14,632 bases of DNA, from assembly GCA_946479115.1 (NCBI GenBank), contig CAMLED010000017.1, positions 1 through 14,632 on the forward strand, given 5' to 3'. Under the pieces are notes generated by a model. It ran no database searches, was not told the DNA's origin, and worked only from the letters and a program-made list of their open reading frames with translations. Source of the DNA: an uncultured Candidatus Saccharibacteria bacterium (GTDB lineage: Bacteria > Patescibacteria > Saccharimonadia > Saccharimonadales > UBA6022). Below, piece after piece: positions 6,776 to 11,280 of this stretch; the first letter of the stretch is position 1; the number at the start of each line of letters is the position of its first letter. Made by a program: the position numbers and the translations under genes.

Positions 6776-6817
6776 ATGTCACAAAAACATAAGAATAGGG
6801 GAACAGGACATGAGTGA
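6776..6817 (+). CDS. 13-codon leader ORF overlapping the nrdA start
   Basis: GGGAGGTGAGT directly precedes ATG 6776, a stronger ribosome binding site than the GGGGAACAGGAC before nrdA. The frame reads MSQKHKNRGTGHE and stops with TGA at 6815-6817, five bases past the A of the nrdA ATG (6810). The geometry suggests translational coupling: ribosomes that finish the leader can restart on nrdA. It has no run of codons typical of attenuation. It may be real or may be chance next to a purine-rich stretch. Confidence 0.4.
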   Translation: MSQKHKNRGTGHE

Positions 6818-9206
6818 GATCCACGTCGTCAAACGCGATGGCACGCGCGAACCATTTGACGCTAACAAGATCAACCTGGCGCTAGTAGCAGCCAGCGAAG
6901 GCTTGCCAGATCAGATTAGTAAGGTAGTACAGGTTGCGACCGAATTACAACTGACATTATTTGATGGTATTACATCTGAACAACTGGACGAAGCAGTCAT
7001 TCATACGGCGCTTCAGAACGTCAAAGAAGATCCTGATTTCGATAAGATTGCGGCTCGTTTGCTTCTTAAGAACATTTACAAGAACATCTTGGGCGACTAC
7101 AGTACTCCTGCTGAGTTAAAGAAGCTCCACGAAGCAAAATTCGCTGAGTATATTAAGCAAGGCGTCAAAGACAACCTACTTGATGAGCGCATGAACGGCA
7201 AAGTATTCGATCTAAAGAAACTTGCCAAGGCGCTTGATCCAACTCGCGATGACCTTAGTAAATACCTGGGTGTCGTGACGAACAAGAACCGCTACGCACT
7301 ACGTAAACAAAGTGGTGCACCGATTGAAGTGCCACAGTTTACTCACATGCGTATCGCTATGGGCCTGAGCTTCAACGAAGCTGACCCAACATCTGCAGCG
7401 ATCGACTTCTACGAACACATGAGCAAGCTTGAATATACCCCAGGTGGTAGTACTCGCGTTAACGCTGGTGGTTCATTCCCACAACTATCTAACTGTTTCC
7501 TCGTTGAAGTACAGGATGACATGGAATCAATTGCCAAGGGTATCCGCGACACCATGTGGATCGCCAAGGGTACTGGTGGTATCGGTATTAGCCTGAACAA
7601 GCTTCGCGCGGCAGGTAGCCCAGTTAAAACTACTAACACCGAATCAACTGGTCCAATTCCATTCATGAAGATGATCGACACAGCCCTATTCGCTGTTTCT
7701 CGTAAGGGTAAAAAAGCCGGTGCAGCTGCACTCTACATGGAAAACTGGCACCTTAACTTCCCACAGTTCCTAGACCTAAAGCAGAACTCCGGTGACCCAT
7801 ACCTTCGTACTCGTTTTGCGAACACCGCTGTATTTATGAGCGACGAGTTCATGAAACGCGTCCAAAAAGACCAAGATTGGTACCTATTTGATCCAGCCGA
7901 AACACCTGATCTTCCAGAACTGTACGGCGCTGAATTCTCAGAAGCTTACGCTGGCTATATCAAGAAGGCTGAAAAGGGTGAACTCCGTGACTTCCAAAAG
8001 ATCAAAGCTCGCGAGCAGTTCTACCAGATTTTGACCGTCCTCCAGGCAACCAGCCACCCATGGCTTACCTGGAAAGACACGATCAATGTTCGCGCATTGA
8101 ACAACAACACTAGCACGATTCACTTGTCTAACCTCTGTACAGAAATTACATTGCCACAAGACAAAGATAACACCGCTGTTTGTAACCTTGTCAGTATCAA
8201 CCTGACTGCGCACCTTAACGAAGACAAGACTTGGGACTGGGATCGCCTCGCTGCCAGTACTCGTAGTGCGATTCGCCAATTGGATAACCTGTGTGACATC
8301 ACAAACACGCCGATTCCAGAAGCAATGCACTCAAATCTGCAGAACCGCGCACTTGGTCTTGGTGTCATGGGCTTTACTGATGTTATCGAAAAGCTTGGCT
8401 ACAGCTACGAATCAGAAGAAGCCTACGATTTGATCGACCAGCTCACTGAGTTCGTTAGTTACAACGCTATCGACGAATCAGCTGACCTAGCTAAGAAACT
8501 TGGTTCATACCCAACCTTCAAGGGAAGTGGTTGGAGCAAAGGTATCCTACCTATCGACACTATTGACCAGCTGGCTGCTGACCGTAAGGTAAAGGTAGAA
8601 GTTAACCGCAAGCAACGCCTCGACTGGGATATTCTTCGCGCTAAGGTTAAAAAAGGTATGCGCAACGCAACTTTGATGGCTATCGCACCAACAGCGAACA
8701 TTGCCCACATCGCTGGTACAACACCAGGCTTGGATCCACAATTTGCTCAGATCTTCTCTCGTGCAACCTTGAACGGTAAGTTCCTCGAAGTAAACGTTAA
8801 CCTCGTAAACGACCTAAAGAAACTAGGTATTTGGGACGACGTCAAAGAAGAAGTACTTCGCACACAAGGTGATGTACAACAAATTGATGCAATTCCACAG
8901 CACATCAAAGATGTATACAAAACCAGCTTCCAGCTCAGTCCATACTCATTCATCGAAGTCGCCGCCCGCGCACAAAAATGGGTTGACCAGGCAATCAGCC
9001 GTAATATGTACCTCGAAACTCGTAACATTGACGACTACATCGATATCTACACCGCAGCCTGGAAACGCGGACTCAAGACAACATACTATCTGCACGTAAA
9101 GCCGCGGCATACCGCAGAACAAAGTACCGTCAAAGTTAACAAATCAGAAACCGGCACCGGACCACGAAAATCAGGATTCGGCTTCGCTAAAAAACAATCA
9201 GTATAG
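6810..9206 (+). CDS. nrdA: Ribonucleoside-diphosphate reductase class I, alpha subunit, lacking its C-terminal cysteine pair
   Basis: The catalytic subunit (798 aa) that reduces ribonucleoside diphosphates to deoxy forms. Residues ~3-95 are an ATP-cone (VVKRDGTREPFDANKI), the allosteric activity site. The ten-stranded barrel carries C229 (SNCFL) and C458 (AVCNL), the reducing pair. It also has N441, C443 and E445 in NLCTE, the thiyl radical Cys and its helpers, plus the phosphate-binding PTANIAHIAGTTPGLDP (627-643). Y759-Y760 (TTYY) match the radical-transfer tyrosines Y730/Y731 of E. coli. After these the family normally has a flexible tail ending in a cysteine pair that re-reduces the active site. 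Here the tail (761-798, ending GFGFAKKQSV) has no Cys, and the last Cys is C495. The pair is found in the next small ORF. The start ATG 6810 is fixed by the ATP-cone. Regulation is probably by NrdR. Confidence 0.97.
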   Translation: MSEIHVVKRDGTREPFDANKINLALVAASEGLPDQISKVVQVATELQLTLFDGITSEQLDEAVIHTALQNVKEDPDFDKIAARLLLKNIYKNILGDYSTPAELKKLHEAKFAEYIKQGVKDNLLDERMNGKVFDLKKLAKALDPTRDDLSKYLGVVTNKNRYALRKQSGAPIEVPQFTHMRIAMGLSFNEADPTSAAIDFYEHMSKLEYTPGGSTRVNAGGSFPQLSNCFLVEVQDDMESIAKGIRDTMWIAKGTGGIGISLNKLRAAGSPVKTTNTESTGPIPFMKMIDTALFAVSRKGKKAGAAALYMENWHLNFPQFLDLKQNSGDPYLRTRFANTAVFMSDEFMKRVQKDQDWYLFDPAETPDLPELYGAEFSEAYAGYIKKAEKGELRDFQKIKAREQFYQILTVLQATSHPWLTWKDTINVRALNNNTSTIHLSNLCTEITLPQDKDNTAVCNLVSINLTAHLNEDKTWDWDRLAASTRSAIRQLDNLCDITNTPIPEAMHSNLQNRALGLGVMGFTDVIEKLGYSYESEEAYDLIDQLTEFVSYNAIDESADLAKKLGSYPTFKGSGWSKGILPIDTIDQLAADRKVKVEVNRKQRLDWDILRAKVKKGMRNATLMAIAPTANIAHIAGTTPGLDPQFAQIFSRATLNGKFLEVNVNLVNDLKKLGIWDDVKEEVLRTQGDVQQIDAIPQHIKDVYKTSFQLSPYSFIEVAARAQKWVDQAISRNMYLETRNIDDYIDIYTAAWKRGLKTTYYLHVKPRHTAEQSTVKVNKSETGTGPRKSGFGFAKKQSV

Positions 9207-9226
9207 AAAAATAGGGGGATAAAACA

Positions 9227-9403
9227 ATGGCAAACGCATCACAAATCATCAGCGACGACATGACACTAGAGGAAAAACTAGAAGCTATCGAAAAAGCTAT
9301 GGCGAACGCACAGGCAATGGCTAACGAAGAAGCAGCAAGCAAAGGTGTCGACGCAGCACCAATCGACCCTCAAGATTTCTTGATGTGTGAAGGCTGCCAA
9401 TAG
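9227..9403 (+). CDS. Small CxxC protein, likely detached redox tail of NrdA
   Basis: A 58-residue protein from ATG 9227, preceded by AGGGGG eight to nine bases upstream. It begins 20 bases after the nrdA stop, in a different frame, with an in-frame TAG at 9212-9214, so it is not a simple frameshifted end of nrdA. Residues ~12-40 (MTLEEKLEAIEKAMANAQAM and on) should form one amphipathic helix. Then comes a flexible VDAAPIDPQD and the end FLMCEGCQ, with C54 and C57 one residue from the C-terminus. Class I large subunits usually end with such a cysteine pair at the very end of a flexible arm, and NrdA here lacks it. I infer that this protein docks on NrdA through its helix and shuttles electrons to C229/C458. 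The split class II enzyme of Pseudomonas (NrdJa/NrdJb) is a partial precedent. Confidence 0.8.
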   Translation: MANASQIISDDMTLEEKLEAIEKAMANAQAMANEEAASKGVDAAPIDPQDFLMCEGCQ

Positions 9404-9416
9404 GTCTAAAAGAGCT

Positions 9417-9662
9417 ATGGAGCAGTTGAATACAGCCCAGACGGTAGAGACCGAAGAAAATAACCGACAGCGCGATTACTTACGCGGGCAACTGGTTATT
9501 CGGGCATACCAAATTAGTTACAGCAAGCCATCAACGGAACTCAGTGCGCAATTTGCAAATTATGAATTAGCGATGATTGCACAAAAAATTGATGCAATCC
9601 CATCGCACACCGTCGGGCAACAAATGCTACCAATAGAATTTAGTGAACAAGGAGAAGAATAA
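9417..9662 (+). CDS. Unknown 81-residue protein inside the nrd operon
   Basis: It lies between the CxxC protein (stop 9401-9403) and nrdB, whose ATG shares one base with its stop (TAATG, 9660-9664). That overlap shows it is translated as part of the operon. I take ATG 9417 with a weak AAAAGAG; a GTG at 9387 inside the preceding ORF would add ten basic residues. The protein is polar and helical, without Cys, His clusters or membrane segments (ENNRQRDYLRGQLVIRAYQI, then LSAQFANYELAMIAQKIDAI, acidic end). I do not recognise a family. Its position suggests a role in the reductase, such as an assembly, metallation or subunit-bridging factor, but this is a guess. Confidence 0.75.
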   Translation: MEQLNTAQTVETEENNRQRDYLRGQLVIRAYQISYSKPSTELSAQFANYELAMIAQKIDAIPSHTVGQQMLPIEFSEQGEE

Positions 9663-10720
9663 TGGCAGGAATTTTAGGCACAGGCATTCAAGACGGACTA
9701 CTTTTAAAGCCCGTCCACTACAAATGGGCAATGGATCTGTATGATCAGGCAGTTGCAAACACATGGTTTCCAAACGAAATCCAATTAGTTCAGGACCTTG
9801 CAGACTGGAAGAAAATGAGCGACGAAGAACGCCACGCGTTGACGTTCTTGATGAGCTACTTTAACCCAAATGAATTGCTTGTGAACAAAGCCTTGGCCTT
9901 TGGTGTCTACCCATACGTCAACGCTGCTGAATGTCACCTCTATCTTGCCAAGCAGATGTGGGAAGAAGCAAACCACTGTATGTCATTTGAATACGTGCTT
10001 GAGACTTTCCCAATCAACCGCGAAGAAGCCTATGCGGCGCACGTTGAAACCCCTTCAATGGCACGCAAGGAAGCGTTTGAAACCAAGTACATCAAGCGCA
10101 TGACCGAAGATACCCTCGATATCACGACGACTGAAGGCAAAAAAGACTTCGTTCGTAACCTGGTTGCCTACAACATTATCCTTGAAGGTATCTGGTTCTA
10201 CAGCGGTTTCATGGTGGCCCTTTCTTTCCGCCAGCGCAACTTGCTCCGTAACTTTGGTTCACTTATGGACTGGGTGGTTCGCGACGAATCACTTCACCTT
10301 AAGTTCGGTATCAACTTAATCTTAACTGTTCTGGAAGAAAACGAAGATCTTCAGACCGAAGAGTTCGCCGCTGAAATCAAGCAAATGATCCTCGATGGTG
10401 TTGAGATGGAAGAAGCCTACAACAAGGACCTATTGCCAAATGGTATCCTTGGTTTGAACAGCGACTACATCAACCAGTACGTTAAGTACCTGGCTGATCG
10501 CCGCCTTGAAGAGCTTGGTTTTGATGCACACTACAAGGTGTCAAACCCTGCTAAGTGGATGGCTGCCGCTAATGATACATTGCAACTCGTTAACTTCTTT
10601 GAAAGCACCAACACTAGCTACGAAGTGAATGCTGGTGGTTCATCGACCAAAGAGATGGAAGGTCAAAGCCCAAGCGCTGACCGCAACGAAAACGATCCAG
10701 ACAATAGTATCTTGAAGTAA
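9662..10720 (+). CDS. nrdB: Ribonucleotide reductase beta subunit, class Ic-like (Phe at radical Tyr site)
   Basis: The radical-generating subunit (352 aa). Ferritin-like helices carry the dimetal ligands E71 (NPNELL), E102 and H105 (WEEANHCMSF), E175 (ILEGIWFY), and E209 and H212 (RDESLHL). The tyrosyl-radical position, four residues after H105, is F109. The first ligand is Glu rather than the Asp of E. coli. Ligand spacing (31, 3, 4, 66, 34, 3) equals that of Chlamydia trachomatis NrdB (E89, E120, H123, F127, E193, E227, H230), which uses a Mn(IV)/Fe(III) cofactor in place of a tyrosyl radical. W35, 36 residues before E71, fits the radical-path Trp, and Y320 in the tail fits E. coli Y356. 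The C-terminal ~30 residues are polar and end in NSILK. The start overlaps the preceding stop. Cofactor identity is inferred. Confidence 0.96.
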   Translation: MAGILGTGIQDGLLLKPVHYKWAMDLYDQAVANTWFPNEIQLVQDLADWKKMSDEERHALTFLMSYFNPNELLVNKALAFGVYPYVNAAECHLYLAKQMWEEANHCMSFEYVLETFPINREEAYAAHVETPSMARKEAFETKYIKRMTEDTLDITTTEGKKDFVRNLVAYNIILEGIWFYSGFMVALSFRQRNLLRNFGSLMDWVVRDESLHLKFGINLILTVLEENEDLQTEEFAAEIKQMILDGVEMEEAYNKDLLPNGILGLNSDYINQYVKYLADRRLEELGFDAHYKVSNPAKWMAAANDTLQLVNFFESTNTSYEVNAGGSSTKEMEGQSPSADRNENDPDNSILK

Positions 10721-10785: not shown

Positions 10786-11280
10786 ATGAAAAATATAATT
10801 GGAAATTACGAATCAGCTATTTTAAGCGCCGAGGCGCTGCTCCACGAACACAGTATTTTACCTGTTGACCTGATACAATGCGACACAATTTGCTACCGCG
10901 TTGAAACAAACGGACGTTACAAAGAGGTAAAAGAGCAGCTGGCTCAAAAAGCCTTGCTATTAAACGAAGTAGAAATTAATAATCGCCTGATTGCTGCATT
11001 TGCTCTTGAAGAACCACTTGAGGCTGGCACGCAGCACTTAATATCCTATATCGAATTACCTCAGCCAAAACCGGGTAGTCAGTATAGCGAAGGAATTGAT
11101 CACGTTCAGTTTGTAACGCGTTTGCCATTGAGCCAGTTCCATACCAAATATCAACAACTGCCATTTGAAACGAAAGGCCTAGCGAGTGAGTTAAACCCAC
11201 TTCTCAAGCTTGAAGGTGAACAGATAAGTGTAAAATTCCACGATAAACACATGGGTGCGGTGATTGCGCTGGAAGATTAG
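10786..11280 (+). CDS. YecM-like protein (VOC superfamily)
   Basis: A 164-residue protein that resembles E. coli YecM along its length. It has DTICYRVETNGRY (33-45), LLLNEVEINNRLIAAFAL (57-74), the strand-turn YIELPQPKPGSQYSEGIDHV (88-107) and the C-terminal GLASELNPLLKLEGEQISVK (131-150) followed by FHD. YecM adopts a vicinal-oxygen-chelate-like fold, and a metal-dependent function has been suggested but not shown. AGGAGG seven bases before ATG 10786 is one of the best ribosome binding sites in the window. No clear promoter lies between the nrd terminator and this gene, so it may depend partly on readthrough. It shares the hairpin at 11297-11336 with the convergent gene downstream. Confidence 0.8.
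   Translation: MKNIIGNYESAILSAEALLHEHSILPVDLIQCDTICYRVETNGRYKEVKEQLAQKALLLNEVEINNRLIAAFALEEPLEAGTQHLISYIELPQPKPGSQYSEGIDHVQFVTRLPLSQFHTKYQQLPFETKGLASELNPLLKLEGEQISVKFHDKHMGAVIALED

Follow-up and report, generated by a model that had tools for sequence, protein, structure and literature searches.

The DNA analyzed here (the window) is a stretch of 14,632 nucleotides from an uncultured Saccharibacteria bacterium. It carries nrdA, a 58 aa open reading frame and nrdB, which are all placed in the same direction by ORF calling on the window (Table 1). The 81 aa open reading frame that precedes nrdB is probably not part of the mechanism proposed below. A YecM-family open reading frame is present downstream of nrdB, at positions 10786–11280. 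The NrdA frame is closed by a TAG at 9204–9206, and a second TAG, at 9212–9214, is in the frame of the 58 aa open reading frame, 15 nt upstream of its ATG. Translation that slipped into this frame ahead of the NrdA stop would therefore end immediately.

Table 1. Features of the nrd locus, with positions in the window
Feature	Position	Strand	Remarks
nrdA, class I ribonucleotide reductase alpha lacking the C-terminal cysteine pair	6810..9206	+	798 aa; domains: ATP-cone, all-alpha, barrel
C229 codon, active-site cysteine (NrdA)	7494..7496	+	Cys in 183/183
C443 codon, presumed thiyl-radical cysteine (NrdA)	8136..8138	+	Cys in 185/185
C458 codon, active-site cysteine (NrdA)	8181..8183	+	Cys in 185/185
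Y759-Y760, radical-transfer tyrosine dyad (NrdA)	9084..9089	+	nrdA codons downstream of it are without Cys
GFGFA motif at the extreme NrdA C-terminus, candidate docking site	9174..9188	+	GFGF[AS] in 188/190
AGGGGG, probable ribosome-binding site for the arm	9213..9218	+	from reading of the sequence
Predicted detached redox arm, 58 aa, ATG at 9227	9227..9403	+	conserved helix, flexible tail, end MCEGCQ
C54 codon (arm)	9386..9388	+	Cys in 121/121 (matches listed plus the window)
C57 codon (arm)	9395..9397	+	Cys in 121/121 (matches listed plus the window)
81 aa open reading frame between arm gene and nrdB	9417..9662	+	similar frame at 2/76 loci (L001, L002)
nrdB, radical-generating beta subunit	9662..10720	+	PF00268, E = 4e-73

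The best NCBIfam model for the window NrdA is NF005101, which has 822 positions; the match reaches position 789 only. An alignment (n = 190) was made of the window NrdA, the NrdA sequences from 76 arm loci described below and the NrdA proteins among the matches listed. Cysteine is present at C229, C443 and C458 in every aligned sequence that has a residue there, and C443 is presumed, from its counterpart in E. coli NrdA, to be the thiyl-radical cysteine. No cysteine follows the tyrosine dyad in any of the 190 sequences (among the matches listed), and the two whose C-terminus is not GFGF[AS] display GFGFT. The first-pass annotation had named C229, C443, C458, C495, Y759 and Y760 and described the tail cysteines as missing; the residues were re-read and are as described. 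The locus shows an alpha barrel with three active-site cysteines and the tyrosine dyad, as well as a separate NrdB-family beta subunit, all characteristic of class I. The cysteine pair at the C-terminus of alpha is absent and is found instead on the separate 58 aa chain.

The 58 aa protein, termed the arm here, has at least 120 homologues of 55–59 aa among the matches listed. Those with a name are annotated as hypothetical protein, and they come from Saccharimonadales, Saccharibacteria and similar groups. The CxxC is kept in all copies, i.e. the matches listed and the window. The pN/pS values of 0.11–0.39 (uncorrected proportions from 15 pairwise comparisons among 6 copies) indicate purifying selection on the arm gene. 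A decayed remnant or a sequencing error is ruled out by the number of listed homologues, the invariant CxxC and the pN/pS values. A single-chain AlphaFold2 model displays a helix at positions 14–39 with low-confidence ends (mean pLDDT 72), and the invariant residues of this helix group along a single face (shuffle p about 0.001). The initial description, of a second open reading frame in another frame with its own AGGGGG, a helix plus linker and a cysteine-bearing end, is confirmed by the ATG, the AGGGGG and the predicted helix.

No significant Pfam or NCBIfam match was found for the arm, whether to thioredoxin, glutaredoxin or another family, and with no Pfam match and a single predicted helix it does not show a thioredoxin fold. 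A glutaredoxin- or NrdH-like external reductant acting directly on the tail-less NrdA would have the CxxC and the operon position in common with the arm, and its function would be close to that proposed below. However, the lack of a family match, the 58 aa length with one predicted helix and flexible ends, and a CxxC situated at the C-terminus as in NrdA tails make such a reductant extremely improbable.

The arm gene was located at 76 loci when one genome was scanned for each species. The order nrdA-arm-nrdB is found at 52 loci and nrdA-nrdB-arm at 17; the arm follows nrdA at a contig end at two, precedes nrdB at one and is without an nrd gene at four, i.e. nrdA and/or nrdB adjoins it at 72 of the 76. 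The four exceptions are L016, L045 and L073, which are on contigs with phage genes, and L066, at a contig edge. Two loci with the order nrdA-nrdB-arm show a small gene between nrdB and the arm (L041, 4536–4934; L009, 4505–4912); that of L041 encodes a pyridoxamine-phosphate-oxidase-like protein.

The arm gene is directly 3′ of nrdA in the window and at 52 + 2 of the 76 loci, a position that would suit a frameshift or readthrough joining the 58 aa protein to NrdA to give a normal tail. However, an in-frame TAG precedes the arm ATG, the frames of the arm relative to nrdA are near equal in number (19, 18 and 17 across 54 loci), nrdB intervenes at 17 of the 76 loci, and an arm is unlinked in another lineage (see below). 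The chance of such a joining is close to nil, and a programmed fusion is refuted by the gene orders. The first-pass statement that the two stop codons exclude a simple frameshift fusion thus holds, and the order of genes in the window recurs in relatives together with a second order. The arm and NrdA are in the same open reading frame at none of the 76 loci. A fusion search of low sensitivity, with a joined 381 aa query, gave seven candidates and none at E ≤ 10; eligible proteins were of ~210–667 aa only, i.e. shorter than full-length NrdA, and the counterweight is the 76 loci and at least 120 listed NrdA proteins of 796–813 aa. By gene order and frame, the arm is an independent gene.

A draw of 192 genomes from the phylum gave the arm in three. 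A draw of 244 genomes from the class gave an arm match in 51 and PF02867 in 156. The window's NrdA type was defined by a best PF02867 match of 534–574 bits, with the boundary set from a gap in the scores. The arm is present in 49 of the 49 class genomes with this type and in 2 of the other 195 (244 genomes, completeness unstated). Of these two, G350 has NrdA as a contig-edge fragment, and G418 has a remnant without the CxxC in a genome without a PF02867 match. The G418 remnant (L175, about 7630–7695, minus strand) reads MGQIISNTMTLEEKLSAINQAIASLS followed by a stop and has no cysteines. Class III NrdD is found in 10 of the 51 arm-matching genomes. The window's NrdA type is the sole reductase found in 36 of the 49 genomes, i.e. 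the sole PF02867 protein with no NrdD found (completeness unstated). The catalytic chain is without a cysteine pair and a conserved, co-occurring second chain has one, as in a split reductase of the NrdJab kind.

The NF005101 cut-off is passed by 4 of the 192 genomes of the phylum draw, three with the split arrangement and G045. NrdA of G045 is intact; its 853-codon frame has the C-terminal end ACPVDPQERLNCESCQ (longer stretch, TACPVDPQERLNCESCQ). The G045 protein (L142/L176; NF005101) and the window NrdA share the barrel, the dyad and the KxRHTAEQST motif that follows the dyad, and the fused tail of G045 shows the same CPxDPxxxxxCxxCQ end as the window's separate arm. Unlike the arm, this tail is joined to NrdA by a Ser/Thr-rich linker and has no helix, and no separate arm gene was found in G045. 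Relatives were searched for an intact NrdA accompanied by a decayed small open reading frame and the opposite was seen, G045 being the sole intact member found. The likeness of the 58 aa end to the end of an intact NrdA, pointed out at first pass, is borne out by the G045 C-terminus and by an alignment of arms and fused tail in which DP, C, C and Q are common to 11 of 11.

Two divergent detached arms bridge to the fused G045 tail. In G235, nrdA is followed by a 54 aa arm ending ACPIDPAERALCDSCQ and then by nrdB; upstream of nrdA are NrdR, thioredoxin and a pyridine-nucleotide disulfide reductase fragment, the thioredoxin neighbour being found in this one genome only. G374 carries a 69 aa arm with the end APIDPQDAFQCEGCQ. 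In a tree of 44 NrdA sequences, with tails excluded, all 17 arm-type NrdA fall into a single clade (SH-aLRT 100) with G045 as sister (100; long branch, 0.57). The common DP/C/C/Q, the one clade and the intact sister argue for a single detachment: the tail was cut off once in the window's lineage, the helix being an extra. Since nothing like the arm helix is seen in the fused tails, its docking is something that we infer.

From these comparisons the locus is read as a three-part class I ribonucleotide reductase consisting of a tail-less NrdA, NrdB and a separate 58 aa redox arm, with a probability of about 0.92. By sequence, the arm is the CxxC tail of the NrdA C-terminus in detached form; it presumably acts in trans. 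The arm helix, residues about 14–39, would dock on NrdA, with the conserved GFGFA end as a possible site, and the flexible end would bring C54/C57 into the active site, where they would reduce the C229–C458 disulfide made in each turnover. Thioredoxin would re-reduce the arm afterwards. A split class I alpha with an arm in trans had been proposed in the first-pass annotation, and relatives support it with the G045 end, the bridging arms, the 49 of 49 co-occurrence and the loci where nrdB lies between nrdA and the arm.

Sml1 is a model for a small regulator or inhibitor of the reductase. A small helical protein encoded in an nrd operon could play such a part instead of serving as a redox arm, and phages sometimes encode regulators. 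However, NrdA would then be left without any cysteine pair, the arm ends in the same way as the intact sister NrdA, and both cysteines are kept in all 121 copies (matches listed plus the window) and in all 20 listed viral copies. A regulator or inhibitor is therefore very improbable, and the redox arm is the preferred reading.

A second NrdA type (PF02867, 625–657 bits) is found in 14 genomes, with the cysteine tail absent in 11 and present in three. The pattern C[DE]xC[QE]-stop gives matches in 11 of the 14 genomes versus four matches for the reversed control. Of the 11 genomes without the tail, eight (G218, G223, G232, G234, G238, G242, G243 and G247) have an unlinked open reading frame of 32–36 aa, e.g. 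MPEVNKINDEDWDKPMVCPIDPKELAECEACQ, and most of these short frames have an AGGAGGG-like leader. A short-arm profile matches 11 of the 244 class genomes, i.e. the eight, G236, G249 (no PF02867 found) and G235 by its arm (E = 4e-4). No arm was found by pattern or profile in G228, G230 and G245, which have tail-less NrdA of the second type. Five loci with this NrdA and no cysteine tail (L169–L172, L177) have no arm gene nearby; the arm is elsewhere in four of the five genomes, with none found for G228. G236 displays a fused tail plus two stand-alone arms (L112, L184, L198), and the contig of one of these arms has an endolysin gene. L112 nests within the tail-less clade of the NrdA tree, thus tail loss in the second type was not one clean event.

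G150 has another NrdA type, in which nrdA is without cysteines and a 69 aa open reading frame behind nrdB ends in GDPNLNVCESCQ. This split rests on one genome; no detached relative of the 69 aa frame was found in 10 genomes of its family, and in four the same end is fused in NrdA. The operonic split described at first pass stands, but its scope was too narrow, as the arm is also unlinked in a second lineage and present in phages.

The window's arm family is found in 20 IMG/VR contigs, with the helix and both cysteines kept. Neither PF02867 nor PF00268 is found in any of the 20 (records possibly fragments), and those sampled carry terminase, portal, endolysin or Erf genes; we infer their host from the arm family alone. 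Arm genes are also found on phage-like contigs in Saccharibacteria bins (L016, 3108–3287; L045, 4920–5159; L073, 4998–5159), and two of these three bins contain an operonic arm as well. The phage genes there are terminase, amidase or endolysin, and an Erf-like protein, and L045 has a phage-type GroEL too. The 32 aa arm family is situated beside endolysins in two more viral contigs and in contigs of G236 and G247.

Viral contigs contain at least 120 stretches that fit DPx(NAN)LxxC[DE]xCQ-stop at the DNA level, and none that fit the reversed pattern. Of the 120 inspected, 119 are short open frames (25–147 codons, median 34) and one is cut by a contig edge; no long open reading frame ends in the motif among these 120. 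The 120 listed stretches show 89 distinct 20-residue ends, and proline is present at position −14, which the pattern does not fix, in 117 of the 119 listed short frames. A reductase large subunit is found in 1 of 50 longer motif-bearing viral contigs.

Three viral contigs (L220, L347, L348) carry a tail-less NrdA with a detached arm upstream, and the identity of these NrdA chains to L220 or to the window's type is 62–64% or higher. In L220 (4892–9425) the order is arm, LAGLIDADG gene, tail-less nrdA and nrdB, the LAGLIDADG gene being between arm and nrdA; WhiB-like proteins are encoded as well. Given these three contigs, the split could even have originated in a phage.

The Saccharibacteria-phage arm and the 32 aa arm give no match in INPHARED. 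The 35 aa arm of L220 gives two weak ones, at E = 0.02 each, which match each other only at E = 1. One is a 30 aa open reading frame of Pontimonas phage phiPsal1 that carries no separate annotation (L222, 4980–5072; MG835450), and the other a 26 aa open reading frame in Pseudanabaena phage Pan2 (L223, 3992–4072; ON968453) that overlaps an annotated open reading frame in another frame. Both are likely arms. A holin adjoins the arm in L264 and in phiPsal1. No annotated reductase was found in phiPsal1 or in the part of Pan2 shown.

Phages of Saccharibacteria and of other bacteria probably use lone arms to sustain turnover of the host's (or their own) tail-less reductase in infection, and arm genes in phages may represent a new type of helper. 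That arms are present without reductase genes (0 of 20 contigs, and a large subunit in 1 of 50) would also suit decoys or inhibitors of the host reductase, but the 20 copies retain the helix and the cysteine pair and DNA phages usually need dNTPs, and a decoy role is unlikely. We consider it rather probable that stand-alone arms are widespread, mostly unannotated microproteins, with at least three detachments from NrdA in Patescibacteria (58 aa operonic, 32–37 aa unlinked and 69 aa behind nrdB). Very many phages, actinophage-like and Saccharibacteria-linked ones included, would then carry arms of ~22–60 aa alone, as a minimal auxiliary metabolic gene for the host reductase, and a phage could be the source of the split.

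Such an arrangement would separate the turnover chemistry of class I from the catalytic chain and make it an interchangeable part. It would also explain the incomplete look of NrdA across a whole bacterial group, and offer a clean test system for the action of the mobile tail. It suggests in addition that phages control dNTP supply by one of the smallest imaginable helper proteins, below the size limit of most gene finders.

The CxxC tail of yeast Rnr1 can act in trans on the neighbouring subunit. In both yeast and the present system the tail of one chain would reduce the active site of another; however, the Rnr1 tail is still covalently part of alpha. The two pieces of NrdA in Aeromonas phage Aeh1 reportedly do not include a free-standing redox tail, unlike the window's arm. 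An insertion of mobE in a functionally critical region of the gene splits this NrdA, and, as proposed here, a functional class I alpha is formed from two polypeptides (PMC2988022). The split enzyme NrdJa/NrdJb likewise has a catalytic chain without terminal cysteines and a second chain for thiol-disulfide exchange (PMC4520616, PMC9669993). NrdJb performs this exchange (PMC4520616) and is needed in vivo (PMC4520616, PMC9669993); unlike the present system, that enzyme is class II and AdoCbl-dependent. The window's locus is not NrdJab proper, with an IscU-like/zinc-finger NrdJb, as it shows a class I alpha with nrdB and an arm without a domain match. By titles and abstract starts, the literature searched gave no description of a class I arm as a separate protein, nor of an arm gene in a phage. 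A split reductase with its redox chain in trans is a known arrangement, and the class I form with a 58 aa arm appears to be new.
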